From contig JANSYF010000007.1 of the NCBI GenBank assembly GCA_024742575.1, positions 1 through 64,000 of the forward strand: DNA of 64,000 bases. Reading direction: 5' to 3'. Position 1 is the stretch's first letter, and every line of letters starts with the position of its first letter. The notes under the pieces are model-generated. The model was not told the DNA's origin. It did no database searches and was given only the letters and a program-made list of their open reading frames with translations. Below are positions 4,780 to 53,210 of this stretch, one piece after another. The DNA is from Paracoccaceae bacterium (GTDB lineage Bacteria > Pseudomonadota > Alphaproteobacteria > Rhodobacterales > Rhodobacteraceae). The position numbers and the translations under genes were made by a program.

Positions 4780-7172
4780 TCCCGACTGCGCTGACAGCCC
4801 TTTTGTCCCATTGGCGCTGCAACGGATTGCAGTTCTTTGCAATGATTGCAGGATTGGCTTTGGCAACTGCGCTTTGGTCAGGTGTGCAAGCCATTAATGC
4901 CGAGGCGCGCGCGAGCTATGACGCGGCAGCCGCGACTTTGGGGGAAGGTCAATTCGACCAGCTCTTGCCACGGACCGGCGACGTGATCGACCAATCCACT
5001 TACATCGAACTGCGCCGCGCCGGGTGGCAGGTGTCGCCGGTGCTCGAGGGACGGTTGCGCACAGAGGCGGGCAGCGTGCGACTGGTCGGTCTTGATCCGT
5101 TGACTGCACCCGGCACCATAGCGCCTGTGGGGATGCAGGAAGACGCCAACTTTGATGATTTCCTGACGCGCGGTGTGCTTTTCGCAGCATCGGATGTGGC
5201 AGAGTCGCTTGCAGCGACCGTCACGCAGCGGGTGATCGTGGATCCAAGCATCGCGCCCGGCGTTGCGCTTTCAGATATCGGCGTGGCGCAAACGCTCTTG
5301 TCGGCCGAACGTACGCTCAGCCGACTGATCATCGCATCAGCGCAGCCGATTGGTTTGCCAGCTTTGTCAGAAGTCGCGCCCAGCCTTGTTCGCCAGCCAG
5401 CGCAAGATACAGGTGCAGACCGTCTGACAGACAGCTTCCACCTCAACCTGACCGCGTTTGGTTTGCTCAGTTTTGCGGTCGGCATCTTTATCGTGCACGG
5501 AACCATCAGTCTGGCATTCGAGCAGCGGCGCAGCATGGTTCGCACACTTCGTGCTTTAGGAGTGCCTATCAACCTTCTGATTGCGATGATGATTTCCGAA
5601 CTGATCGCGTTTGCATTGATCGCTGGCGGGATCGGGGTCGCCATTGGATACGTGATCGCGGCTGCGCTTTTGCCAAACGTGGCTGCCACCCTTCAGGGAC
5701 TCTATGGCGCATCGGTCGCAGGCACCTTGGAATTGCGTCCCGAATGGTGGCTTTCGGGAATGGCGATTGCGGTTCTCGGCACGGGGTTGGCCGCAGCGGG
5801 CGCGCTGTGGAAGATCGCACAGATGCCACTTCTGGCCAGCGCACGGCCACGGGCCTGGGCTGTGGCTTCGGGGGGAACCGCGTGGCGGCTCGGCGCAATT
5901 GCCGCGCTGCTTTTCGTTGTGGGGATCGGAATCGCGATTTGGGGTCAGGGTCTGACCCTCGCCTTTGCGCTTTTGGCGTGCGTTTTGATCGGTGCAGCCT
6001 TGATCCTGCCGCTCGTACTGCACGGCGCGGTCGGGTTTGCCAACCAGCGCGCACGCGCTGCGATGTGGCAATGGTTCTGGGCTGACACACGCCAGCAGGT
6101 GCCGGGAATGAGCCTCGCGTTGATGGCGCTCTTGCTGGCCACCGCTGCGAACGTCGGCGTATCGACGATGGTGTCGAGCTTCAGGGTCACTTTTGTCGAT
6201 TTCCTAGATCAACGGCTCGCGCCCGAGCTGTTCATCCGTGTGGAGGACGAGGCGCTAAGTCTGGAACTAGAAGCGATCTTGTTGACCCAAGCGCGCGAAG
6301 TTCTGCCACTTTTGTCTACCGAGACCGAAATCGCAGGGGTTCCCACCGACCTTTTCGGTGTGCGCGTCGGACCGACATACCGCGAGAACTGGCTGTTCCT
6401 TGAGGAGACACCGAACGTGTGGGATCGGGTCGAAGACGGACGCGCGGTGGTGGTGAGTGAACAACTGGCCCGCCGCGCAGATTTGTGGACAGGCGACCGC
6501 TTGGTCATCGCGCCCAACTTGATGCTGCCGATTGCCGCCATCGTTGCCGATTACGGCAACCCGCTGGGGCAAGCGCTGATTTCTGAGGCAGTTTTCCATG
6601 AACTCTATCCCGATCTGGTCCCAATGTCCTTTGGGGTGCGCTCAGACGATCCAACCGCACTACGGGACAGGTTGACGACAGAGTACGGCGTGCCTGAAAC
6701 CGCCATCACCGACCAGTCACGGATCAAGGCATTCTCATTGGGGGTGTTCGAACGTACCTTCACGGTTACCGGCGCGTTGAACATTCTCACGCTCGCGGTC
6801 GCGGCGTTTGCAATCCTGATGAGCCTACTGACCCTCGCGTCTATCCGGGTGCCGCAGCTTGCTCCGGCATGGGCCTTAGGGCTGACACGGCGCAAGTTGG
6901 GGCAACTCGAATTGATCCGCGCGGTCGTTTTGGCGATGGTCACAACACTGTTGGCGATCCCGTTGGGCCTGATGTTGGCGTGGGTGTTGCTGTCCTATGT
7001 GAATGTCGAGGCGTTTGGTTGGAAGCTGCCAATGTACCTTTTCCCGGGCCATTACGCGCTGCTGACGCTCTTTGCGCTTTTGGCCGCCGCATTCGCTGCG
7101 CTTTGGCCTGCGATCCGATTGGCACGAACGCCGCCGTCCAACCTGCTTAAGGTGTTCGCCAATGATCGCTAG
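4776..7172 (+). CDS. FtsX-like ABC permease (AttF/AttG-like, long fused form)
   Basis: A 798-residue inner-membrane permease with a GTG start overlapping the ATPase stop by 4 nt. One N-terminal helix (about residues 18-38) precedes a large extracytoplasmic domain. A first FtsX-type membrane block follows (about 225-430, with several helices, TLRALGVP in the first cytoplasmic loop). A second soluble domain (about 470-640) and a final FtsX block near the C-terminus (LTLASIRVPQLAPAWALG) complete it. The duplicated layout lets a single polypeptide supply both halves of the transporter. Substrate unknown; lipoproteins, lipids or envelope components are plausible for this class. Confidence 0.88.
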   Translation: MIPTALTALLSHWRCNGLQFFAMIAGLALATALWSGVQAINAEARASYDAAAATLGEGQFDQLLPRTGDVIDQSTYIELRRAGWQVSPVLEGRLRTEAGSVRLVGLDPLTAPGTIAPVGMQEDANFDDFLTRGVLFAASDVAESLAATVTQRVIVDPSIAPGVALSDIGVAQTLLSAERTLSRLIIASAQPIGLPALSEVAPSLVRQPAQDTGADRLTDSFHLNLTAFGLLSFAVGIFIVHGTISLAFEQRRSMVRTLRALGVPINLLIAMMISELIAFALIAGGIGVAIGYVIAAALLPNVAATLQGLYGASVAGTLELRPEWWLSGMAIAVLGTGLAAAGALWKIAQMPLLASARPRAWAVASGGTAWRLGAIAALLFVVGIGIAIWGQGLTLAFALLACVLIGAALILPLVLHGAVGFANQRARAAMWQWFWADTRQQVPGMSLALMALLLATAANVGVSTMVSSFRVTFVDFLDQRLAPELFIRVEDEALSLELEAILLTQAREVLPLLSTETEIAGVPTDLFGVRVGPTYRENWLFLEETPNVWDRVEDGRAVVVSEQLARRADLWTGDRLVIAPNLMLPIAAIVADYGNPLGQALISEAVFHELYPDLVPMSFGVRSDDPTALRDRLTTEYGVPETAITDQSRIKAFSLGVFERTFTVTGALNILTLAVAAFAILMSLLTLASIRVPQLAPAWALGLTRRKLGQLELIRAVVLAMVTTLLAIPLGLMLAWVLLSYVNVEAFGWKLPMYLFPGHYALLTLFALLAAAFAALWPAIRLARTPPSNLLKVFANDR

Positions 7173-8202
7173 GGCGCTTCTTTTGATCCTGTGGCTGCCT
7201 GTTCAAGCGGCCGCGCAAGGTTTTGCCGGGCTGGGCACCGATGCCGATGGCTTTGCCGTTCCGACGCCGAACCCTGTATTCGACTTCCCAAAGGATCATG
7301 GCGCGCATCCTGATTACCGCATTGAATGGTGGTATCTGACTGCAAACCTCACCGGGCCTGACGGGACCGCGTATGGTATTCAGTGGACATTGTTCCGGTC
7401 AGCCTTGGCGCCGGAAACGCGCGAGGGCTGGTCGGATCCGCAGGTATGGTTCGCCCATGCAGCAGTCACAACGCCCGACAGCCACCTTGTCGCCGAACGC
7501 ATCGCGCGGGGTGGGATCGGGCAGGCGGGTGTGACCGTAGAACCTTTCGCAGTATGGATCGACGATTGGCAGATGGCAGGGCCGTCCTTTGACGAGGTGC
7601 GCTTGACCGCGCGTGGTCAAGCCTTTGCCTATGACCTTGGCTTGCAAGCCAAAGGGCCACTGGTCTTTCATGGCGAGGGTGGGTTTTCCGTCAAGTCAGC
7701 GCAAGGCCAGGCCAGCTATTATTACTCTCAGCCGTTCTACGAGGTGACCGGCACACTGACCCTGCCGACTGGTGACGTGGCTGTGACGGGGTCAGCATGG
7801 CTGGACCGTGAATGGTCGTCGCAACCCTTGGCGGACACGCAATCGGGCTGGGACTGGTTCTCGTTGTCCTTTGATAGCGGCGACAAGCTGATGGGTTTCT
7901 TGTTGCGTGAAGACGATAGCATGTCGTTTTCCTCGGCTACCTGGATCGCGCCGGATGGCACAACCACTGCCTATCCTGACGGGGCCTTCACTGCGAAACC
8001 TATGACGTGGCACAAGGTTGCGGGGCGCGAGGTGCCGACGGAATGGGCCGTACAATTGCGGGACAAGGGCATCGACGTCACCGTGACCGCACTGAATCCC
8101 GACGCTTGGATGGCAGTATCCATCCCTTATTGGGAAGGGCCGGTCACGGTCCAAGGGTCCCACAACGGGCGCGGCTATCTGGAGTTGACAGGCTATGAGT
8201 GA
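7162..8202 (+). CDS. Exported lipocalin-like (AttH / CrtC-like) protein
   Basis: 346 residues from the ATG at 7162, which overlaps the permease stop by 11 nt. A longer in-frame reading from 7072 is buried in the permease and lacks a signal peptide. MIARALLLILWLPVQAAAQ is a typical signal sequence with cleavage near residue 19. The mature part carries the EWWYLTANL motif (from residue 55) and the later LDREWSSQP motif of the AttH/hydroxyneurosporene-synthase-like lipocalin superfamily. Members next to FtsX-type ABC systems are often misnamed iron permeases. It probably handles a hydrophobic ligand in the periplasm for the adjacent transporter. Confidence 0.85.
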   Translation: MIARALLLILWLPVQAAAQGFAGLGTDADGFAVPTPNPVFDFPKDHGAHPDYRIEWWYLTANLTGPDGTAYGIQWTLFRSALAPETREGWSDPQVWFAHAAVTTPDSHLVAERIARGGIGQAGVTVEPFAVWIDDWQMAGPSFDEVRLTARGQAFAYDLGLQAKGPLVFHGEGGFSVKSAQGQASYYYSQPFYEVTGTLTLPTGDVAVTGSAWLDREWSSQPLADTQSGWDWFSLSFDSGDKLMGFLLREDDSMSFSSATWIAPDGTTTAYPDGAFTAKPMTWHKVAGREVPTEWAVQLRDKGIDVTVTALNPDAWMAVSIPYWEGPVTVQGSHNGRGYLELTGYE

Positions 8203-9571: not shown

Positions 9572-11977
9572 CTAACCGCGCATCTGTTCCCCGTCAGCGT
9601 CGTAAAGCGGGGTTGTGATAAGCTTGGCATCACACATCTTGCCCAGTATTTCGATCTGCGCTGTCTGTCCCTCGATCGCATTGGCGCGCGGGATCAGTCC
9701 AAGCGCGATGGATTTGCCTGAATGGTGGGAATACCCGCCGGAAGTGCAGAACCCTTGCACCGTGCCGTCGATCCAGATCGGCTCATAGGCGTTTACATCG
9801 GCGTCGGTCACGGCCACTTCAAATGCGCAGAGCACACGGTCGGGCGAAGCGGCGCGTTCTGCCTCAGCCGCCGCGCGTCCGATGAAATCAGAGTTCTTCG
9901 ACCATGCGATAAAGCGGTCCATTCCGGTTTCGCCGGGGGTGTAATCAGGCGAAAACTCAGAAAGCCAAGACCCAAAGAACTTGTCTAGGCGCAGCGACAT
10001 CATCGCGCGCATCCCGAAGGGTCGCATCCCGTGGTCTTGCCCGGCGGACCAAAGCGTGTGCCACAACTGCCGCTGCGCCACAGGTTCACAGTAAATCTCG
10101 TACCCCAAACCGCCAGTATAGCTGACCCGCTGCACAAGACAGGGTGTCATGCCGATGGTCATCGGGCGCACATCCATGAACTTCAGATCGGTCGCATCGC
10201 GTGTAACTGCGTTCAGCACCTTGCGGGCATTCGGCCCCGCGATCTGGAACCCGGTGAGCTGATCTGACACGTTTCGCACAGTCACGCCATCTGCGGCGTT
10301 CTGTTCGAACCAGCGCATGTGATAGGCTTGTGATCCGTAACTGGCGGTCAGTTGGAAATGGGTATCCGACAGGCAGGAAATGGTGAAATCTCCGATCAAC
10401 CGCCCCTTGTGCGACAGCATCGGCGTCAGCGACAACCGCCCCGGTTTTGGCACACGCCCAGCCATGACACGATCCAGCCAGTCGCGGGCGTTCGTGCCAG
10501 TCACTTCGTACTTTCCGAAGTTCTGAACTTCATTGATTCCAACGGCTTCGCGGACGGCTTTCACTTCGCGCGCGGTCGCCTCCCACGCGTTGGAACGGCG
10601 GAAAGATGGCGTCTCGTACCGCGCCTCGTCACCTTCCGCGAAGTAATTGACCACCTCAAGTCCGAACTGCGCGCCCCACACTGCGCCCATGTCGTCGAAG
10701 ATGTCATACATCATCGTGGTGCGGTTTGGCCGCGCGGCGGGCAGTTCTTCGTTCGGGTAGCTGACGGAAAAGCGTTTTTGGTAGTTCTCGATCACCTTGG
10801 GCAGGGTGTAGCCCGGGCTGATCCAATCCCCAAACCGGGCCACGTCCATCGCCGACACATCGCGTTCGCATTCGCCTTCGATCATCCATTGCGCCAGCAT
10901 CAAACCAACGCCGCCGCCTTGGCTGAACCCAGCCATCACACCGCAAGCCGACCAGTAGTTCCGCAGCCCCGGCACCGGGCCGACCAGCGGATTGCCGTCG
11001 GGGGCAAAGGTGAAAGGCCCGTGTATCACCGATTTCACACCTGCGGTTTCCAGCACTGGGAAGCGTTTATAGGCAAAGGCGATGCTGTCTTCGATCTTGT
11101 CGAAATCGTCAGGCAGTAGTTCATGCCCGAATGTCCACGGTGTGCCACCGACAGCCCAAGGGCGACAGGGCTGTTCGTAAAACCCAATGCACAAACCGCG
11201 CCCTTCCTGACGCAGATAGGACTCTCCCGCAGGGTCCATCACATGCGGATGTTCGCTGTCCCGCTCGTAGATCTTCGCGATTTCGTCCGTGACGATATAC
11301 TGGTGCTCCATCGGGTGCAGCGGCAGGTAGACCCCTGCCATCGCGCCCACTTCGCGCGCCCAAAGGCCGCCCGCATTGACCACATGTTCGGCATGGATCG
11401 TGCCCTTGTCAGTTACCACGTTCCACGTCCCGTCCGGGCGCTGGGTGGTTTCCTGCACCATCACATGGGTTTCGATCGTGGCCCCACCCATCCGCGCGGC
11501 CTTGGCATAGGCATGGGTTGTACCAGACGGATCAAGGTGCCCGTCCAGCGGGTCGTACAAGGCGCCCAGTATACCGTCCAAGTTGGTGATCGGCGCGATC
11601 TTGGCGATCTCCTCGGGGCCGACAATCTGCGTATCCAGCCCCATGTAGCGATGCTTGGCCCGCTCGGCGAGCAGCATGTCGAACCGGTCTTGGTTGTCGG
11701 CCAGCGTGATGCCGCCCACATGGTGCAGCCCGCAGGACATGCCCGTGATTTCTTCCAGCTCCTTGTAAAGCCGGATCGTATAGCCCTGCAGCGCGGCCAT
11801 GTTGGTGTCACCGTTCAGCGTGTGAAACCCGCCAGCGGCATGCCATGTTGATCCGCTTGTCAGTTCAGAACGTTCCACCAACATAACGTCTGACCAGCCA
11901 AGTTTGGTCAGGTGGTATAGCACCGAAACCCCAACAACCCCGCCGCCAATCACCACCACACGCGCCTGCGTCTTCAT
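9572..11977 (-). CDS. FAD-dependent dimethylglycine/sarcosine dehydrogenase-like protein with GcvT domain
   Basis: 801 residues from the ATG at 11977, which has AGAGGA 8 nt upstream. The Rossmann FAD site IGGGVVG is at 10-16. SGSTWHAAG contains His46, which in mammalian DMGDH/SARDH homologues carries covalently bound FAD. A DAO-fold oxidase half (to about 400) is followed by an aminomethyltransferase (GcvT) half in which folate would accept the one-carbon unit. This domain order is that of enzymes demethylating dimethylglycine or sarcosine. Substrate choice cannot be read from sequence. A second, divergent paralogue starts at 13011. Confidence 0.88.
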   Translation of the reverse strand: MKTQARVVVIGGGVVGVSVLYHLTKLGWSDVMLVERSELTSGSTWHAAGGFHTLNGDTNMAALQGYTIRLYKELEEITGMSCGLHHVGGITLADNQDRFDMLLAERAKHRYMGLDTQIVGPEEIAKIAPITNLDGILGALYDPLDGHLDPSGTTHAYAKAARMGGATIETHVMVQETTQRPDGTWNVVTDKGTIHAEHVVNAGGLWAREVGAMAGVYLPLHPMEHQYIVTDEIAKIYERDSEHPHVMDPAGESYLRQEGRGLCIGFYEQPCRPWAVGGTPWTFGHELLPDDFDKIEDSIAFAYKRFPVLETAGVKSVIHGPFTFAPDGNPLVGPVPGLRNYWSACGVMAGFSQGGGVGLMLAQWMIEGECERDVSAMDVARFGDWISPGYTLPKVIENYQKRFSVSYPNEELPAARPNRTTMMYDIFDDMGAVWGAQFGLEVVNYFAEGDEARYETPSFRRSNAWEATAREVKAVREAVGINEVQNFGKYEVTGTNARDWLDRVMAGRVPKPGRLSLTPMLSHKGRLIGDFTISCLSDTHFQLTASYGSQAYHMRWFEQNAADGVTVRNVSDQLTGFQIAGPNARKVLNAVTRDATDLKFMDVRPMTIGMTPCLVQRVSYTGGLGYEIYCEPVAQRQLWHTLWSAGQDHGMRPFGMRAMMSLRLDKFFGSWLSEFSPDYTPGETGMDRFIAWSKNSDFIGRAAAEAERAASPDRVLCAFEVAVTDADVNAYEPIWIDGTVQGFCTSGGYSHHSGKSIALGLIPRANAIEGQTAQIEILGKMCDAKLITTPLYDADGEQMRG

Positions 11978-45591: not shown

Positions 45592-47406
45592 ATGCCCGCT
45601 GATACGACAACCGACGCCGAAATGGCTGCCAACGAACGCCGTTCCGGATTGCGTACGATCCGCAAGGTCGGGCCGTATCTGTGGCCGGACCACAAGCCTT
45701 GGGTTAAGCGTCGTGTTGTGATTGCTCTGGTCAGCCTTGTGCTGGCCAAGGTCGTCAACATGCTGGCGCCGCTGTTTTTCGGCAAGGCTGTAGATGCACT
45801 GTCGGGGCAAGCCTCTGATCTGGTTCTTGGCGGTGTAGGTCTGACACTCGCCTATGGTGTTGCCCGTTTGATGAATGTCGGTTTTCAGCAATTGCGCGAC
45901 GGCGTCTTTGCGCGTGTCGGCCAACGTGCCTTGAGATCGCTTGCTTTGGAAACCTTCACCCATATTCACCGCCTGTCGATGCGATACCACATCACGCGCA
46001 AGACTGGTGGGCTAAGCCGCATCATCGAACGCGGGGTCAAAGGCGTCGACTTTCTTTTGCGGTTCATGCTGTTCAGCGTGGGGCCGCTGATCCTTGAATT
46101 ACTGCTGGTTTCGCTTGTTCTGCTTTGGCTGTTGGATGTCCGTTATATGGCCGTCGTTCTGGTCACCATCGGTATTTACGTCTGGTTCACCTTCAAGGTC
46201 ACAGAATGGCGTGTCCGTCTGCGCCGCGAAATGAACGAACAGGATACCGACGCGAACCAAAAGGCGATCGATAGTCTGCTTAACTTTGAAACGGTCAAAT
46301 ATTTTGGCGCGGAATCCCGCGAAGCGGCCCGGTATGACCGCTCGATGGAGGCGTACGAGGGCGCGGCGATCAAGACTGCAACATCGCTGGCCATGCTGAA
46401 TTTTGGGCAAAGCGTGATCATCACGGCTGGACTCGTTGCGGTGATGGTGATGGCGGCGTTTGGCGTGCAAGCCGGCACGATCACTGTCGGAGATTTTGTC
46501 ATCGTCAATGCATACATGATCCAGATCACCATGCCGCTGAACTTCCTTGGAACAGTGTACCGCGAAATCCGTCAGGCGCTGGTCGACATGGGTGAAATGT
46601 TCGATCTTCTAGAACAGCCGCAAGAAGTATCAGATAAACCCGGCGCGCCGGGTGTTCAGGTCTCGCAGGGGGCGGTCCGGTTCGAGAATGTGAAATTCGG
46701 CTACGATCCTGCGCGCCCGATTTTGAAAGGCGTATCACTCAACGTGCGTTCAGGTGAAAACGTGGCTTTGGTTGGCCCATCAGGATCGGGCAAATCCACC
46801 ATCGGCCGCCTGCTGTTCCGGTTCTATGATGTGGTGGACGGATCCGTGAAAATCGATGGACAGGATGTGCGGGACGTGACTCAGGACAGTCTGCACGACG
46901 CGATCGGGGTCGTGCCGCAGGACACAGTGCTGTTCAACGACACAATCCGCTATAACATCGCCTATGGGCGCGCTGGTGCAACCGAGGAAGACATCATCGG
47001 GGCAGCCCGTGCCGCACAGATCCACGACTTCATTCTGTCCTTGCCCGAAGGCTATGACACGATGGTTGGCGAACGTGGGTTAAAACTGTCCGGAGGGGAA
47101 AAGCAGCGTGTCGGTATCGCGCGTACATTGCTCAAGAACCCACCAATCCTGATCCTCGATGAGGCGACATCGGCGCTTGATTCCGAAACAGAGGCGTCGA
47201 TTCAAGGCGCACTCAAACTGGCCAGCGAAGGCCGCACTGTCATCACCATTGCCCACCGCCTGTCTACAATCGCCGATGCGGACCGGATCGTCGTTCTGGA
47301 AAACGGTGAGGTGGTCGAAGAAGGTACACATGACAGCCTCTTGGCGTCTCATGGGCGGTACGCGGCCTTGTGGAATCGCCAAATGCAAGAGGAAGCGGCA
47401 GCTTGA
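45592..47406 (+). CDS. Atm1/HMT1-type ABC transporter (ABCB7-like half-transporter)
   Basis: 604 residues: six membrane helices (about 40-330) fused to an NBD. Walker A GPSGSGKST at 395-403, signature LSGGEKQR and ILILDEATSALD are intact. NFETVKYFGAE and LNFLGTVYREIRQ are diagnostic of the Atm1 group, which exports glutathione-linked sulfur or metal conjugates. The protein acts as a homodimer. It is 99 nt upstream of the exosortase gene on the same strand; co-transcription is possible but functional linkage is not implied. Confidence 0.9.
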   Translation: MPADTTTDAEMAANERRSGLRTIRKVGPYLWPDHKPWVKRRVVIALVSLVLAKVVNMLAPLFFGKAVDALSGQASDLVLGGVGLTLAYGVARLMNVGFQQLRDGVFARVGQRALRSLALETFTHIHRLSMRYHITRKTGGLSRIIERGVKGVDFLLRFMLFSVGPLILELLLVSLVLLWLLDVRYMAVVLVTIGIYVWFTFKVTEWRVRLRREMNEQDTDANQKAIDSLLNFETVKYFGAESREAARYDRSMEAYEGAAIKTATSLAMLNFGQSVIITAGLVAVMVMAAFGVQAGTITVGDFVIVNAYMIQITMPLNFLGTVYREIRQALVDMGEMFDLLEQPQEVSDKPGAPGVQVSQGAVRFENVKFGYDPARPILKGVSLNVRSGENVALVGPSGSGKSTIGRLLFRFYDVVDGSVKIDGQDVRDVTQDSLHDAIGVVPQDTVLFNDTIRYNIAYGRAGATEEDIIGAARAAQIHDFILSLPEGYDTMVGERGLKLSGGEKQRVGIARTLLKNPPILILDEATSALDSETEASIQGALKLASEGRTVITIAHRLSTIADADRIVVLENGEVVEEGTHDSLLASHGRYAALWNRQMQEEAAA

Positions 47407-47505
47407 CCATCAAGTTGCTGCGAATAACCACATCAAGGCCACAAAACGGCCCATTGAAAAGATCAAGACTTACGCCGTTAATAAGCTGAAGAGCACAGAG
47501 TAACG

Positions 47506-49083
47506 ATGTCCCGATTGGTCTTTTCACAACTTCTACTGCTGATTGAGGCGATCGCCATTGTTGCGCTTTACCAAGTGTTCAGCAATTTCGAGTGCCGTCA
47601 GACAGATCTCTTTCTTTTGTGCCGTGGAATTCGACTGGGCATGGTGCTGGGTCTTTGTCTGGCTGCCGGGTTCGCTTTGTTGTTGTTTTTTCAGCCGTCA
47701 TTGCGGGACGGTCTGCTGAAAAAGTCTGCTACAGCCAGTGGCTCTTCGCGTCGCTGGGGTGTCCTGCACCTTGCAGGCCTTGCTTTGATCGCGGCACCAA
47801 CGCTGATCCTGTCGCAAGGCCAATTGGTCGAATTTGCACCGTTTTTCCTGTCGGCTTTGGCCGCTGGTGGGATTGCTGCGCTAACCGGAGCAGCGCTGTG
47901 GCTGATGCCTGCTGCATCTTGGCGCGATCTGTTCAATGATCATGCCCGGCTTCTGCTTCCGACGATTGCAATTTCGCTGCTGATTCCGTCCTTGGCATGG
48001 GCAATCAGTTTGGCTTGGAATTGGTTCGACGCTCTTCAACTCGCGACATTCTACAGCGTTGCGATAGTTCTTGCGATCTTGGGCAACGATGTGTTCGTCA
48101 ATCTTGAACGTGAAACAATTGGGATTGTGGACTTCTATGTCGAAGTGGCTGAATCCTGTTCTGGCATCGAAGGTCTTGCTCTAACCACAGCGTTCATGGC
48201 GATCTATGCGCTCATGATGAAGGACGACCTGCGTATGGGGCGGTTCTGGCTGATTGTGTGGCCCGCTGCACTGGTCCTCAGCTTTGTTCTGAACGTTGTT
48301 CGCATCAGCGTGCTGATCTTGATTGGGGCCTTTGCCTCTCCTGACTTGGCGGTCAATGGGTTCCACAGTTTTGCTGGTTGGCTGTCTTTCACGCTTCTGG
48401 CACTGCTCATCCTGACAATCGTAAACGTGCTGCCGGGACTGAGCAAAAGACCAAAGGTCGCCCAGAAAGTGGCGGTCGCCCCTTTGACCGAGGATAAGGC
48501 TGCCGCCTTCATCGTACCTTTTCTTGCTTTCATGCTGTCAGGGCTGTTCGTCAACACGTTCTCGCAAACCCCAGAAGTTTGGTACGGCATTCAAGTTGCA
48601 GCAATGGCTTTTGCCTTGTGGGTTTTCCGCAAGCCAGTTTTGGCCTTGAGCAAAGACATTGATCTGATCGCTATCGGTGCGGGTGTTGTGATTGCTTTGG
48701 GCTGGATCGTTACAGCGCAACCCTCCGCGCCTTTTGCATCGTTGACCGAGTTTGGCACGTTTGCATTGGCTGCCTGGGTTGTGCTGCGGGTGCTTGGCAC
48801 TGCGCTTTTCGTGCCGATTGTCGAAGAACTGTTTTTCCGTGGCTACCTGTTCAGCTTGATTGACAATGGCAGCCCGGTGCGTCGCGCACTTGCAATCGCC
48901 GTAACCACTGTTGGATTTGCCGCTTTGCATTCAAGGCCGATTGCAGCTGCACTGGCTGGCATCATCTTCGCGCTAATCATGCTCCGGCGGGGCAGGGTGT
49001 TTGATGCGATTATCGCCCATGCTGTGGCCAACGCACTTATTGCCGCGGCTGCAGTTGCGACTGGGCAATGGTCTTTGATCTAA
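47506..49083 (+). CDS. xrtE: Exosortase E fused to a CPBP (CAAX-type) protease, VPEID-CTERM system
   Basis: 525 residues, almost entirely membrane helices. The exosortase half (to about 310) has the three signature residues: Cys218 (AESCSGIEGL), Arg266 (LNVVRISVL) and His287 (FHSFAGW). The C-terminal half (from about 335) is a CPBP intramembrane protease: Glu440-Glu441 and Arg445 (VEELFFRGYL), His475 (AALHS), and His505/Asn509 (AHAVANA). This fusion is the hallmark of the exosortase E/protease family. Exosortases recognise C-terminal sorting signals, cut and presumably transfer the protein. The matching substrate lies convergent, 58 nt downstream. Confidence 0.93.
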   Translation: MSRLVFSQLLLLIEAIAIVALYQVFSNFECRQTDLFLLCRGIRLGMVLGLCLAAGFALLLFFQPSLRDGLLKKSATASGSSRRWGVLHLAGLALIAAPTLILSQGQLVEFAPFFLSALAAGGIAALTGAALWLMPAASWRDLFNDHARLLLPTIAISLLIPSLAWAISLAWNWFDALQLATFYSVAIVLAILGNDVFVNLERETIGIVDFYVEVAESCSGIEGLALTTAFMAIYALMMKDDLRMGRFWLIVWPAALVLSFVLNVVRISVLILIGAFASPDLAVNGFHSFAGWLSFTLLALLILTIVNVLPGLSKRPKVAQKVAVAPLTEDKAAAFIVPFLAFMLSGLFVNTFSQTPEVWYGIQVAAMAFALWVFRKPVLALSKDIDLIAIGAGVVIALGWIVTAQPSAPFASLTEFGTFALAAWVVLRVLGTALFVPIVEELFFRGYLFSLIDNGSPVRRALAIAVTTVGFAALHSRPIAAALAGIIFALIMLRRGRVFDAIIAHAVANALIAAAAVATGQWSLI

Positions 49084-49090
49084 TGGCATA

Positions 49091-49122
49091 AAAAAAGCAT
49101 CCGACGCGGACGTCGGATGCTT
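49091..49122 (-). terminator. Terminator shared by xrtE and the VPEID-CTERM gene
   Basis: AAGCATCCGACG/CGTCGGATGCTT, a perfect 12-bp stem with a CGGA loop. On the minus strand it runs into seven T residues, so it terminates the small substrate gene; it can also slow xrtE transcription. Confidence 0.88.
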
Positions 49123-49141
49123 ATGTTCGTTGGGGTTCCAT

Positions 49142-49300
49142 TTAAGCGCGGTTGCGCCGACGGACTTCCCAAGCCAACAGCATTGCAGCAGCAACAACGG
49201 CCAAAGCCAGTGCACCACTGCTCGCGTCGATTTCCGGAACAGAAGAAGCTGTAGGTGTGCTTCCACCGCCGAAAAAGATACGCCAGCTATCCCACCACAT
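49142..49300 (-). CDS. VPEID-CTERM sorting-domain protein, exosortase E substrate
   Basis: 52 residues. The start at 49300 is set by a perfect AGGAGGT 6 nt upstream; a longer frame from 49357 has none. Layout: a 19-residue aromatic/Gly passenger (MWWDSWRIFFGGG, then STPTASS), the sorting motif VPEID at 21-25, a membrane helix (about 30-46) and a basic tail EVRRRNRA. Short motif, helix and Arg tail are the three parts of an exosortase signal. There is no N-terminal signal peptide, so the helix must insert with the N-terminus outside. It is the only such protein in the window. Confidence 0.92.
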   Translation of the reverse strand: MWWDSWRIFFGGGSTPTASSVPEIDASSGALALAVVAAAMLLAWEVRRRNRA

Positions 49301-49328
49301 AAAAAACCTCCTATATAGCAGCGCCCCC

Positions 49329-49357
49329 TGCATACACAGAATTGCCACATTCTCCAA
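49329..49357 (-). promoter_or_regulatory. Candidate promoter of the VPEID-CTERM gene
   Basis: On the minus strand, TTGGAG (49352-49357) and TATGCA (49329-49334) are 17 nt apart, predicting a short leader of about 25 nt before the strong ribosome-binding site. Confidence 0.45.
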
Positions 49358-49442
49358 GTGCGAAGCGGTTTGCGTTCACATATGCGCAACAATCATAAAT
49401 TTTGACTAAAATAGAAAAATCGCTCTCAACAAAGCTGCCTTA

Positions 49443-52400
49443 TTATTCAGCAGCACGTATCGGTGGTGTGCCATCATTTGCGTGCGATCGCTGCAAAACA
49501 CGCTTGAGATCCTCAAGCGCGGGCGCGCCGGACGTTCCTTCTTCGTAATCTGGCTCTGGACGTGATTCGGCATCATCCCAAAGAATCGTCGGGGATTTCA
49601 GCTTGCGCGCTGCCCGTTGCAGTGCCCAGTCACGACCAGCACGGCTCGCGCTGCCACCGCCCAAACGGGCAAGCAAGCGGAAGAACCAAAGCGCATACGT
49701 TGTAAACCAAACCCGCGCGGCCAGCATCGAAGGGGTAAAGACCAGCGTCAGAACTGTTGCGATGCCAAGGCCAAAGACGACCGCGGTCGCAAGCTGCTTC
49801 CACCAAAGCGCAGTTGGGCTGTCGATCGAATAACCGCCGCCAAAGAAATCAAGGCTGAGGCCAAACATCATCGGCGCAAGGCCCGCCATAGTTGTGATCG
49901 TGGTCAAAAGGACCGGGCGGATACGATCCTCAGCGGTGCGCACAATCGCCTCGATCCGGGGCATGTAGCGCGAGTATTCTTGGTAGGTGTCGATCAACAC
50001 GATGTTGTTGTTCACCACGATCCCCGCCAAAGCAACGATTCCTGTTCCGGTCATGATGATGCTGAAGGTTTGATCCATCACCAGCATCCCAATCAATACA
50101 CCCGCCGTGGACAGGACCACGGCGAGCAACACAAGAACGGCGTTATAGAAACTGTTGAATTGCGCGAGCAGGATTATGAACATCAGCCCAAGCGCCGCGC
50201 CAAAGGCGCTGCCAAGGAAAGCCTGGCTTTCCGCCTGTTCTTCCTGATCGCCGGTCCATTCCCAGTCGATGCCGGGCAGGGGGCTGGTTTCCAGCCACGT
50301 CGTCAATTCCTCAATGCGTTCATTGGCGTTCACCGGAACCACCCGCGCCCCGTCCTCCAACGCGGTTGTGACTTCGGGTACGCTGATCGACGGGCTTTGG
50401 AACAACTCATATTGTGTGCCATTGGGACCTTCGATAGGGCCGCCCGCGCGTTCTTTAAGTGTGGCCAACGTCGTTGGTCCATCTGCGCCATCGGTTACCA
50501 GCTTGAACAACCCCGGCAACACATCCGCCTTAACGTCGAAATACCGTTTTTGATCGACGCGATTGATCTCGGAAAGCTTGGCCACAGGTTTGCGCGTGAT
50601 GAAGTTGGACAACGGGATAAGTCCGTCTGCAGTCCGAACCCGCAACGTGTCCAGCGTGGATAGGAACCGATCCTCTTGCGGGAGACGTACACGGATTTCG
50701 ATCTCTTCGTCTGAACTGTCGACCCGCATCGTGTCCAATAGAATGCCGCGCGTCACCAATTGCACCATCGCACCGACCACGGCCACGTTCGCGCCGTAAC
50801 GCCCGGCTTTTTCAACGTCCACATCAATCTGCCAATCGATGCCGGGAAGGGGCAGGGTGTCTTCAATGAGTGTCAGGCCGGGGGTTGCCTCGAACTGTTC
50901 GCGCGCTGTTGCGGTCGACGCCAAAAGGTCATCCCAGTCATCGGCTTTCAGCCGCAGGTGTACGGGTTTGCCACTTGCAGGTCCGCGGTTTTGCGACAGG
51001 ATTTCGATCTCGACGCCGGGGATGACCTTTAACTGTTCGGTCAATTCTTCAATCACGATGTCGCCGTCCAGATCGGGGCGATCCGCGCGATCTTCCCACG
51101 GGATCGTTTCCAACTGCACTTGGCCGACGGTATCCTTGGGTACGGCTGCACCGCTTGCATCGGTGTTCAAGCCACCTGCTCCGGCAAAGGAAAACGCGTT
51201 TTTCACGCCGGGATGCGCAAGCACGATTTCTTCGGCCCGCATCACCAATGCGTCTTTTTCCTCAAGGCTTAGGTTGCCGCGAGCGCGCACATAGACAATC
51301 GCCTGTTCCGGTTCAGATTCGACAAAGAATTCGACGCCGTTGTTGTTTTCGCCAAAGTAGGTGAAGACGCTGAACACAAAGGCCAGAACAGCTGCGCCAG
51401 CAACGATCGGCATGATCGGATTGCCGGCAATGAACTTGATAAAGTATCCGAACACGGTTCGCCGACGACGGCCTTCAACCCGCTTGCGTGTCCATTTGAT
51501 CGACGCCGCGTCCAACACGATGGACGCCAGAACGGATCCCAAAAGGAACAGCACGATCCCCGGTATATGCGCCCCAACACCATCTGCAATCGGCGGAAAC
51601 AGGAAGCCGGGATCGAGCAACATCAGCGCACCGATGAACAACATCCCTAACACAACAGGCACCAATGCCGCACGCACCAACCACGAAGTGCGGGCGCGCA
51701 ATCCTTGCGATGCGTGATCCAGCATCCGCGAAAACCGGCCTGTGACGCCACCCATAACGGGCAGGTATATCAGAGCCACCACCAAGGAGGCGGACAGAAC
51801 AAAGATTAGGGTAACTGGCAACATCCCCATGAATTCCCCGGGGACACCGGGCCAAAACAGCATCGGCAAAAAGGCGCAAAGCGTCGTCGCGGTAGAACTG
51901 ACAACAGGCCAGAACATGCGTTTGGCCGCTTCGACATAGGCGTGCATCGGGCCGGACCCTTCGCTGATGCGTTTGTCAGCATATTCGACCACAACAATGG
52001 CCCCATCAACGAGCATCCCAACAGCCAGGATCAAACCGAACATCACGATGTTCGAAATGCTGACGCCCATGATCGACAGGAACACGAAACACAAAAGGAA
52101 TGATGTGGGAATAGCGAACCCGACAAGCAAAGCGGCTCGAAGGCCAAGCGCTGCAAGAACCACGATCATAACAAGCGCAATCGCCGTAAGGACCGAACCT
52201 TCAAGCTGTTTGACCATGCTATCCACGATGCGGGATTGGTCATTCGATGTACCCACGGTCACAGCAGCTTGCAATTCAGGCGGCCAATTTGCCTCGGCGG
52301 CGGCGACTTCTGCCTTCACCGCGTCTGCCGTGTCGATAAGGTTGAAACCCTTGCGCTTGACCACTTGCAGCGCCAACGTCTTTTCACCGTTGAACCGCGC

Positions 52401-53210
52401 GGTGCCTTCGCGGTCCTCAAACGTTAGATTAATTGTCGCCAGATCTCCAAGCGTGACGACGCGGTCGCCGTTCACCTTGACCGGTAGGTCATATACGTCG
52501 CGCTGATCGTCAAAGCTCGACGGGATTTTGACTGCAAAACTGCCTTGATCGCTGCGCAACTCACCAGCGGCGATCAACTGGTTGTTGTTTTGTACCACGT
52601 TGATCAGTTCGGTCGCCGTGACGTTGTAACTCTCCAGCTTGAGAGGGTCTATCACCACCTCAAGCATCTCGTCGCGATTGCCCGCAATCCCCGCTTCAAG
52701 CACGGAATCTAGTGATTCAAGGCGGTCCTGCAAATCCTTGGCCACCCGCGCCATAGTGCGTTCCGGAACTGGCCCGGTCAGGTTCACGATGACGATCGGG
52801 AATTCGGAAAAGTTGATTTCGGTGATAGAGTATTGTTCTGCGCCAGCGGGAAACTTGGATTGCGCCTTGTTCATCGCGTCGCGCACATCGGCCATCACTT
52901 GGGTCTTGTCCCAGCCGAATTCGAATTCGAGTGCGACTCCAGCATAACCTTCGGCAGCGGTCCCCGACAGACTTTTTAGCCCGTCCAGATCCGCCAATTC
53001 CGTTTCCATTGGCTTGACCAGCAGTGTTTCGCTGTCTGCAGCGGAGATGCCGGGGAATACCGTTGACACAAAGAGGGCGGGTATCTCGATGTCCGGTTCG
53101 CCCTCTTTTGGCAGGCCGATATAAGAGTAGGTTCCAATGGCCAAAGACAGCGCAATAAAGGCCAACACCATGCGGGCGCGTTCGGCGGCCCAGTCTACGA
53201 TCCCGGTCAT
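49443..53210 (-). CDS. RND efflux permease with an enlarged central membrane linker
   Basis: 1255 residues, about 200 more than AcrB. It has the two-fold RND layout with TM1 near 15-31, TM2-6 at about 340-487 and TM7 near 599-620. Between TM6 and TM7 are two additional hydrophobic segments (about 510-533 and 549-567) not found in AcrB. TM4 has LVDGAIVVVE (Asp402, then Gly where AcrB has a second Asp); TM10 has GIVVNNNIVLID with Asn1067 at the position of the AcrB relay Lys. A hydrophilic tail of about 70 residues ends it. The adaptor gene overlaps by 4 nt. Substrate unknown. Confidence 0.9.
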   Translation of the reverse strand: MTGIVDWAAERARMVLAFIALSLAIGTYSYIGLPKEGEPDIEIPALFVSTVFPGISAADSETLLVKPMETELADLDGLKSLSGTAAEGYAGVALEFEFGWDKTQVMADVRDAMNKAQSKFPAGAEQYSITEINFSEFPIVIVNLTGPVPERTMARVAKDLQDRLESLDSVLEAGIAGNRDEMLEVVIDPLKLESYNVTATELINVVQNNNQLIAAGELRSDQGSFAVKIPSSFDDQRDVYDLPVKVNGDRVVTLGDLATINLTFEDREGTARFNGEKTLALQVVKRKGFNLIDTADAVKAEVAAAEANWPPELQAAVTVGTSNDQSRIVDSMVKQLEGSVLTAIALVMIVVLAALGLRAALLVGFAIPTSFLLCFVFLSIMGVSISNIVMFGLILAVGMLVDGAIVVVEYADKRISEGSGPMHAYVEAAKRMFWPVVSSTATTLCAFLPMLFWPGVPGEFMGMLPVTLIFVLSASLVVALIYLPVMGGVTGRFSRMLDHASQGLRARTSWLVRAALVPVVLGMLFIGALMLLDPGFLFPPIADGVGAHIPGIVLFLLGSVLASIVLDAASIKWTRKRVEGRRRRTVFGYFIKFIAGNPIMPIVAGAAVLAFVFSVFTYFGENNNGVEFFVESEPEQAIVYVRARGNLSLEEKDALVMRAEEIVLAHPGVKNAFSFAGAGGLNTDASGAAVPKDTVGQVQLETIPWEDRADRPDLDGDIVIEELTEQLKVIPGVEIEILSQNRGPASGKPVHLRLKADDWDDLLASTATAREQFEATPGLTLIEDTLPLPGIDWQIDVDVEKAGRYGANVAVVGAMVQLVTRGILLDTMRVDSSDEEIEIRVRLPQEDRFLSTLDTLRVRTADGLIPLSNFITRKPVAKLSEINRVDQKRYFDVKADVLPGLFKLVTDGADGPTTLATLKERAGGPIEGPNGTQYELFQSPSISVPEVTTALEDGARVVPVNANERIEELTTWLETSPLPGIDWEWTGDQEEQAESQAFLGSAFGAALGLMFIILLAQFNSFYNAVLVLLAVVLSTAGVLIGMLVMDQTFSIIMTGTGIVALAGIVVNNNIVLIDTYQEYSRYMPRIEAIVRTAEDRIRPVLLTTITTMAGLAPMMFGLSLDFFGGGYSIDSPTALWWKQLATAVVFGLGIATVLTLVFTPSMLAARVWFTTYALWFFRLLARLGGGSASRAGRDWALQRAARKLKSPTILWDDAESRPEPDYEEGTSGAPALEDLKRVLQRSHANDGTPPIRAAE

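Follow-up and report, generated by a model that had tools for sequence, protein, structure and literature searches.

An apparently leaderless 52-residue VPEID-CTERM precursor in a predicted two-gene exosortase E cassette of a Paracoccaceae bacterium

In the PEP-CTERM/exosortase A (EpsH) system, the targets of an exosortase-family enzyme carry a tripartite C-terminal tag, and one account (PMC12188702) describes them as having N-terminal signal sequences, which belong to the usual description of an exosortase target, and the loci as mostly exopolysaccharide-linked; exosortase systems elsewhere are described there as stabilizing polysaccharide at the surface. A two-gene neighborhood with a single target is described in another report (PMC11980579) for MrtJ and JDVT-CTERM, a system built on a myxosortase-type CPBP protease. 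The exosortase E/protease, VPEID-CTERM pair (TIGR04162/TIGR04161) is a catalogued NCBI family for which we found no study in the open-access literature, the subscription literature being outside the search, and the original prediction that its product and role are undescribed agrees with this. Here, we analyze a pair of this kind, xrtE and its VPEID-CTERM partner, in a 64,000-nucleotide window (contig JANSYF010000007.1 of assembly GCA_024742575.1, positions 1 to 64,000) from a marine Paracoccaceae bacterium. Both proteins score far above the curated cut-offs, their genes are adjacent and the enzyme spans the whole model, but the substrate is a 52-amino-acid precursor apparently lacking the signal peptide of most relatives examined. 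The novelty lies in this leaderless variant. A leaderless substrate, empty sites or an association with a thioester adhesin was not met in the open-access literature consulted, no search having been aimed at leaderless sorting substrates.

The precursor gene (49142..49300, minus strand) is convergent to xrtE and starts at the ATG at 49300. TIGR04161 matches its product with 61.2 bits (E 6.8e-17, cut-off 33), and the small gene foreseen earlier from VPEID, a membrane helix and an Arg tail is thus confirmed as a family member. The profile begins at residue 21 with the VPEID motif (49226..49240, minus strand), and a hydrophobic helix and an Arg-rich tail (49145..49225, minus strand) form the rest of the sorting tag, so that the C terminus carries the full anatomy of an exosortase substrate: motif, hydrophobic helix, and basic tail. 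Ahead of it, residues 1 to 20 (49241..49300, minus strand) consist of a Trp-rich head, MWWDSWRIFFGGG, and a Ser/Thr/Gly linker, as supported by composition and by the substitution pattern of the head. A perfect Shine–Dalgarno match, AGGAGG, stands 6 nt before the ATG (49307..49312, minus strand). In the Marivita-type loci, the window included, this element lies 4 to 7 nt upstream, with 6/6 matches in 8 of 10 and 5/6 in the other 2. Signal peptides were called from hydrophobicity, start sites, and stops together with visual inspection, and by the first three no N-terminal Sec signal sequence was seen in the window 52-mer. In 18 of 25 leaderless genes, an in-frame stop occurs within 33 codons upstream of the motif, so that a signal peptide would hardly fit, if at all. 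The Shine–Dalgarno sequence and the close stops in relatives support a leaderless precursor that would be translated from a strong ribosome site. The original prediction gave the size and the tag of this substrate correctly and did not notice that the signal peptide is missing.

Most relatives have a Sec-type signal peptide, often a Trp-rich stretch, then a Gly/Ser/Thr linker, VPEID, the helix, and the Arg tail, whereas the small gene of the window and of its Marivita relatives opens directly with the aromatic stretch. Besides 11 Roseovarius-type loci that fall in one clade, R. salinarum (L104) and the locus L070 also show the leaderless form. Marivita cryptomonadis and Roseovarius tolerans are among the loci of the leaderless type, and VPEMD and VTEMD occur as variants of the motif. 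On a quick XrtE tree of 90 rows, the leaderless state changes three times, and at least two changes are forced by supported branches; leader and VPEIS labels on this tree were set by hand, seven partial, duplicate, or divergent loci were omitted (L056, L057, L059, L060, L107, L156, and L168), L092 is a partial piece, and L169 is labeled as carrying a signal peptide with its VPEID gene unseen in its stretch. One common leaderless clade was rejected by the approximately unbiased (AU) test (p-AU 2.8e-5; 22 leaderless vs. 25 signal-peptide XrtE rows, L092 omitted), and grouping L104 with the Roseovarius set was not (p 0.16). Where a small gene was observed on the deeper XrtE branches, it comes with a signal peptide (L155 and L169 being unassessed), which makes loss the likely direction. 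Judged by these sequences, Marivita and the Roseovarius group apparently lost the signal peptide independently. For these counts, the automatic leader call was corrected by eye in seven cases counted as signal-peptide genes (L079, L093, L099, L102, L107, L145, and L023), and the third gene of L070, automatically flagged as having a signal peptide, was counted as leaderless with uncertainty. Three loci showed irregularities. In the leaderless locus of Roseovarius gaetbuli (L092; L014, genome G123), xrtE has an internal in-frame TAA and the small gene is intact. In a Roseovarius metagenome-assembled genome (MAG), the VPEID gene is frame-shifted between signal peptide and tag (L095, 9546-9800), which may be a sequencing error, and a contig labeled Nocardioides marinus (L088) bears a roseobacter-type xrtE cassette, probably through contamination or mislabeling.

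With or without a signal peptide, the head has a similar Trp content. In 24 distinct leaderless heads, Trp accounts for 9.9% of the residues, and in 42 signal-peptide heads for 10.0%, in comparison with 0% in the 19 short heads of a group with a VPEIS tag (see below), and at least two Trp occur within the first 20 residues in 19 of the 24 and 30 of the 42, respectively. These statistics count identical heads once (the window head equals that of L064), omit 11 loci (L056, L057, L059, L060, L095, L154, L155, L156, L161, L164, and L168), and use crude signal-peptide cuts, so that the heads of L079, L102, and L145 retain part of the leader. By these counts, the Trp-rich head is kept across signal-peptide loss. 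Of the ten Marivita genes, the seven with a WDSW head gave a ratio of nonsynonymous to synonymous differences (pN/pS), computed from pairwise and thus not independent counts, of 0.06 for the head and 0.08 for the tag, and their linker varies in length. The mean net charge of the leaderless proteins is −0.6 in the head and +3.7 in the tail, and that of signal-peptide heads is +0.6. The positive-inside rule predicts orientation from charge and, with these values, an outward N terminus and an inward C terminus.

The partner gene xrtE (47506..49083, plus strand) encodes a 525-amino-acid fusion of exosortase E with a glutamic intramembrane protease of the CPBP/Rce1 type. TIGR04162 scores 514 bits (E 4.6e-154, cut-off 150), with residues 9 to 525 aligned to model positions 4 to 516. 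The exosortase domain (residues 52 to 308; 47659..48429, plus strand; PF09721, 65.9 bits, cut-off 25.7) contains Cys218 (48157..48159), Arg266 (48301..48303), and His287 (48364..48366; all plus strand), which we take to be the catalytic Cys, Arg, and His of the exosortase family. The C-terminal half is matched by TIGR03008 (residues 333 to 525, 108 bits, above the cut-off of 81), and its CPBP/Rce1-like domain (residues 423 to 511; 48772..49038, plus strand; PF02517, 59.3 bits, cut-off 22.4) holds Glu440-Glu441 of an EExxxR motif (48823..48828, plus strand) and a stretch with His475, His505, and Asn509 in FxxxH and HxxxN motifs (48928..49032, plus strand). Both active sites, comprising the exosortase triad as well as E440, E441, R445, F471, H475, H505, and N509, are invariant across 49 aligned sequences, the window among them and nearly all of its type (L092 and L107 omitted). 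The exosortase, its coordinates, and its three signature residues were thus as first described, and the fused protease had been overlooked. The neighboring profiles stay below their thresholds: XrtA gives 42.7 bits on XrtE (cut-off 208), and MrtJ gives 29.2 bits on the C-terminal half (cut-off 75). In comparison with MrtJ/JDVT-CTERM, XrtE adds a complete exosortase, and the VPEID tag here has no Cys. An AlphaFold2 model of XrtE reached a mean predicted local distance difference test (pLDDT) score of 87.6 and a predicted template modeling score (pTM) of 0.63, but searches of PDB gave no match by fold at E ≤ 0.001 or by sequence at E ≤ 0.01. XrtE of the named Marivita loci is 71 to 82% identical to that of the window, and in sequence terms the source genome is Marivita-like.

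The source genome is a draft of 3.49 Mb, 87% complete, and contains a single TIGR04161 match over the cut-off and a single exosortase-family match. A whole-genome search for further VPEID-CTERM tails, many of which would speak against one enzyme serving one dedicated partner, returned only this one above the cut-off; a second candidate (C70; L003) was a weak match (E 0.27, 14 bits) in an open reading frame (ORF) unlike a sorting tag and was rejected. Across 390 genomes of the order, XrtE was over the cut-off in 45 and VPEID-CTERM matched at E ≤ 0.001 in 44 (35 over the cut-off), with exactly one per positive genome. Both were found in 42 genomes, XrtE alone in three and VPEID-CTERM alone in two (Fisher p 3e-50, the genomes being related and not independent). 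Genomes G273, G304, and G380, with XrtE and without a family VPEID match, have weak VPEID/VPEV tails near xrtE, found by a profile made here from the same loci; G178 (L157) and G354 (L158) have a VPEIS small gene with a thioester-type neighbor and no XrtE over the cut-off in the genome. A sparser sampling of the class, with 385 genomes, yielded XrtE in four: the source genome, two further members of the same family, and a single genome from a different family. The named loci were retrieved with the window's own XrtE and are hence biased to its type. Two relatives depart from a single target. In L070, a MAG, three VPEID-type genes that differ in their heads stand in tandem (9576-10561, minus strand) beside one xrtE, two of them clearly leaderless and the one at 10025-10222 uncertain, and in L155 (G380) a divergent XrtE relative lies near two ORFs of ~200 and ~375 residues with VPEV tails (5790-6401, plus strand; 6873-8000, minus strand), possibly a multi-target version. 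One enzyme with one partner is the state of the source genome, and a single VPEID-CTERM that of each of the 44 positive genomes, but the rule is not general.

The two genes lie between an ABC transporter gene (45592..47406, plus strand; PF00664 and PF00005) and a gene for an AcrB-family RND pump (49443..53210, minus strand; PF00873, 482 bits), in the order ABC, xrtE, VPEID, RND. Among the named loci, xrtE and the VPEID gene are convergent in 48 of 50, RND adjoins VPEID in 39 of the 48 with room, and ABC is a neighbor in 30 of 50; no conserved third gene was found between the flanks at the window-type locus. Of the 345 genomes without xrtE in the scan, we searched 20, the four congeners and the first 16 others listed, and obtained a clear RND orthologue in 16 (weak L186-L189 were dropped). 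ABC stood beside RND in 13 of these 16 stretches, the stops being 19 to 990 bp apart and at most 400 bp apart in 11. In all four congeners without xrtE the distance is 19 to 53 bp vs. 2036 bp in the window. This adjacency in xrtE-less genomes argues that the two genes are the whole local system and, of the pumps once considered as functional partners, that they are bystanders marking the site; both flanking genes were taken as outside the system. The RND gene shares the strand of the small gene, and shared transcription is possible. Distances among XrtE proteins parallel those among their RND neighbors (Mantel r 0.893, n = 38, 0 of 1000 permutations), and on the RND-neighbor tree the cassette state changes five times, at least four of them forced; L070 is placed differently in the XrtE and RND trees. 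The agreement of distances argues against horizontal spread as the main cause of patchiness and for a cassette mostly inherited at this site and repeatedly lost, and by sequence comparison xrtE and VPEID look like a self-contained 2-kb unit with this history. Between the convergent genes lies a terminator-like hairpin (49095..49122, listed on both strands) with a 12-pair stem and a T-run on the minus strand, its fold z being −5.3 on the minus and −3.7 on the plus strand. Within Rhodobacterales, xrtE also occurs on 12 plasmid records. Of the eight plasmid stretches opened (L162-L169), four place xrtE among polysaccharide export or synthesis genes, one of them (Alloyangia) also near xrtD.

The neighborhood comparison across Rhodobacterales, proposed at the outset, thus bore out the convergent two-gene unit and added a second arrangement. 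In a second subfamily, the tag is mostly VPEISALEG (VPEIDAAAG in G368), and wherever the two genes occur together they share a strand, with the small gene upstream of xrtE. Directly upstream of the small gene is a large surface-type protein, with SdrD_B in six of seven scanned, whose C-terminal ~160 residues resemble a thioester domain (Pfam TED matches in five of seven, 14.2 to 20.7 bits, below the cut-off of 22). A structural model of this domain was poor (AlphaFold2, pLDDT 48.5), and its seven top PDB matches are thioester-domain adhesins at E 0.06 to 0.29, none significant, including Spy0125 entries, which we presume to be of this class; the fold matches may be taken as a hint, and a PDB sequence search with the domain gave no thioester-adhesin match. 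Y-C and Q-x-A-x-W are invariant in 10 of 10 aligned domains, in agreement with the [YFL]C motif and the Cys-Gln pair given for Gram-positive adhesins in a published description (PMC8092201). The surface-type proteins (L151, L142, L148, L153, L143, L108, L163, L165, L166, L167, and others) usually end in DCLC or similar. A domain profile matched 26 of the 390 genomes: 18 of 18 VPEIS-type and 0 of 26 window-type genomes, as split by hand, and eight with neither XrtE over the cut-off nor a VPEID match. In all 18, the domain adjoins the small gene by coordinates, even with xrtE on another contig (G263 and G312) or not found (G178 and G354). The domain profile found none in the source genome, and a Pfam TED search there was empty, its controls being silent too.

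How the window pair might work can be set out in four steps. The precursor would be translated from its strong ribosome site without a signal peptide, the step that the start-site evidence supports. Its single helix may then insert directly, with the N terminus out and the Arg tail in, through YidC and/or SecYEG, so that direct insertion would replace the ancestral signal peptide. The Pf3 phage coat protein, which is a short N-out single-helix protein without a signal peptide, takes such a direct YidC route; the 52-mer is likewise short, leaderless, and predicted to be N-out with a single helix, but Pf3 coat is a phage capsid protein and is not processed. At the outer face of the inner membrane, the exosortase half would cleave the precursor at VPEID or close to it, probably through a Cys acyl-enzyme, and transfer the peptide to an acceptor, for example a lipid. 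This chemistry is taken from the families, namely CPBP sorting by myxosortase (PMC11980579) and lipid anchoring by archaeosortase (PMC7157517). In the weakest step, the glutamic protease half might make a second cut, clearing the helix stub or trimming the product. The outcome would be a peptide of ~20 to 25 residues in which a flexible Ser/Thr/Gly linker follows an aromatic head rich in Trp, and it would stay at the envelope, perhaps on polysaccharide; we infer its display, its acceptor, and its function. Polysaccharide binding by the aromatic head is the putative role that we favor, by analogy, because half of the opened plasmid stretches lie among polysaccharide genes and exosortase systems stabilize surface polysaccharide. 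A self-contained two-gene sorting cassette making one short envelope peptide is the reading that we put forward, with our confidence in it evenly balanced.

Several points weigh against it. Cleavage, localization, and expression are predictions only, no sigma-70-like promoter was found in 47300-49600, and the Pf3/YidC route is an analogy. The searches by sequence and by fold gave no solved homologue of XrtE. In the window, 45 codons separate the in-frame stop from the motif, and initiation at an upstream TTG would lengthen the product to 71 residues and add a hydrophobic stretch, ENVAILCMQGALL (best mean over 10 residues 2.04); a similar stretch lies upstream in L104 (1.98). We consider these upstream starts unlikely, as they have no ribosome-site support and close relatives with near stops have no such extension. 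Fewer than two Trp occur in the first 20 residues of 12 of 42 signal-peptide and 5 of 24 leaderless heads, and three of the ten Marivita-type loci (L062, L066, and L069), outside the pN/pS count, have related but different aromatic heads. The mature VPEIS heads are only ~11 residues long and have no Trp, and a functional head is hence not a feature of all XrtE substrates. Polysaccharide synthesis genes do not adjoin the window cassette, whose neighbors are the two transporters.

The anatomy of the 52-mer fits a short peptide product, and display and release are not separable by sequence. The peptide could thus be released instead of anchored, with XrtE and the second protease making a secreted Trp-rich peptide for signaling or competition. 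A product of only ~20 to 25 residues would suit this, as would the conserved head and freely varying linker of the seven Marivita genes, but the heads are near neutral in both leader classes, unlike cationic membrane-active peptides, and the two recurrent flanking transporters, which are not the only recurrent neighbors, adjoin in genomes without the cassette and are thus not dedicated exporters; we regard release as unlikely. The sister branch raises the prospect that the small protein serves as an anchor or adaptor whose processed end holds a partner, the thioester adhesin in that branch and another molecule, or polysaccharide bound by the Trp head, here. The invariable position of the VPEIS small gene directly behind the gene of the thioester-like domain, in 18 of 18 genomes as against 0 of 26 window-type genomes with the domain, and heads that look too short to act alone speak for such a function, which for the window is made rather unlikely by the absence of the domain from matches in the source genome, by the lack of a conserved third gene between the flanks, and by the eight domain-bearing genomes that lack both an XrtE over the cut-off and a VPEID match.

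The leaderless genes could also be nonfunctional remnants, signal-peptide loss being decay. The frequent changes of cassette state on the RND-neighbor tree and the interrupted xrtE of R. gaetbuli are what decay would leave behind. It is made highly improbable by the strong Shine–Dalgarno sequence, the low pN/pS in head and tag, the intact xrtE adjoining the 52-mer gene in the window, and the persistence of the leaderless state in the 11 Roseovarius-type loci of one clade. Extending the preferred reading of a displayed envelope peptide, we tentatively suggest a system pared to a minimum, in which the signal peptide was dropped at least two times and the precursor, reduced to payload and tag, would be directly inserted, cut by a two-protease fusion, and displayed as a Trp-rich peptide of 20 to 25 residues, and the same enzyme family in the sister branch would serve a short anchor peptide dedicated to a covalent adhesin that bears a thioester, in Gram-negative bacteria.

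Much of what is said of exosortase chemistry in bacteria still rests on inference, and a single-target, two-gene cassette with a 52-residue substrate and natural empty sites in congeners offers a very small system for reading the cleavage site, the acceptor, and the role of the second protease. With its signal peptide apparently lost more than once, the substrate provides a natural experiment that shows which of its parts is retained, and the sister branch, through its link to a thioester-type adhesin, supplies a concrete lead to function.

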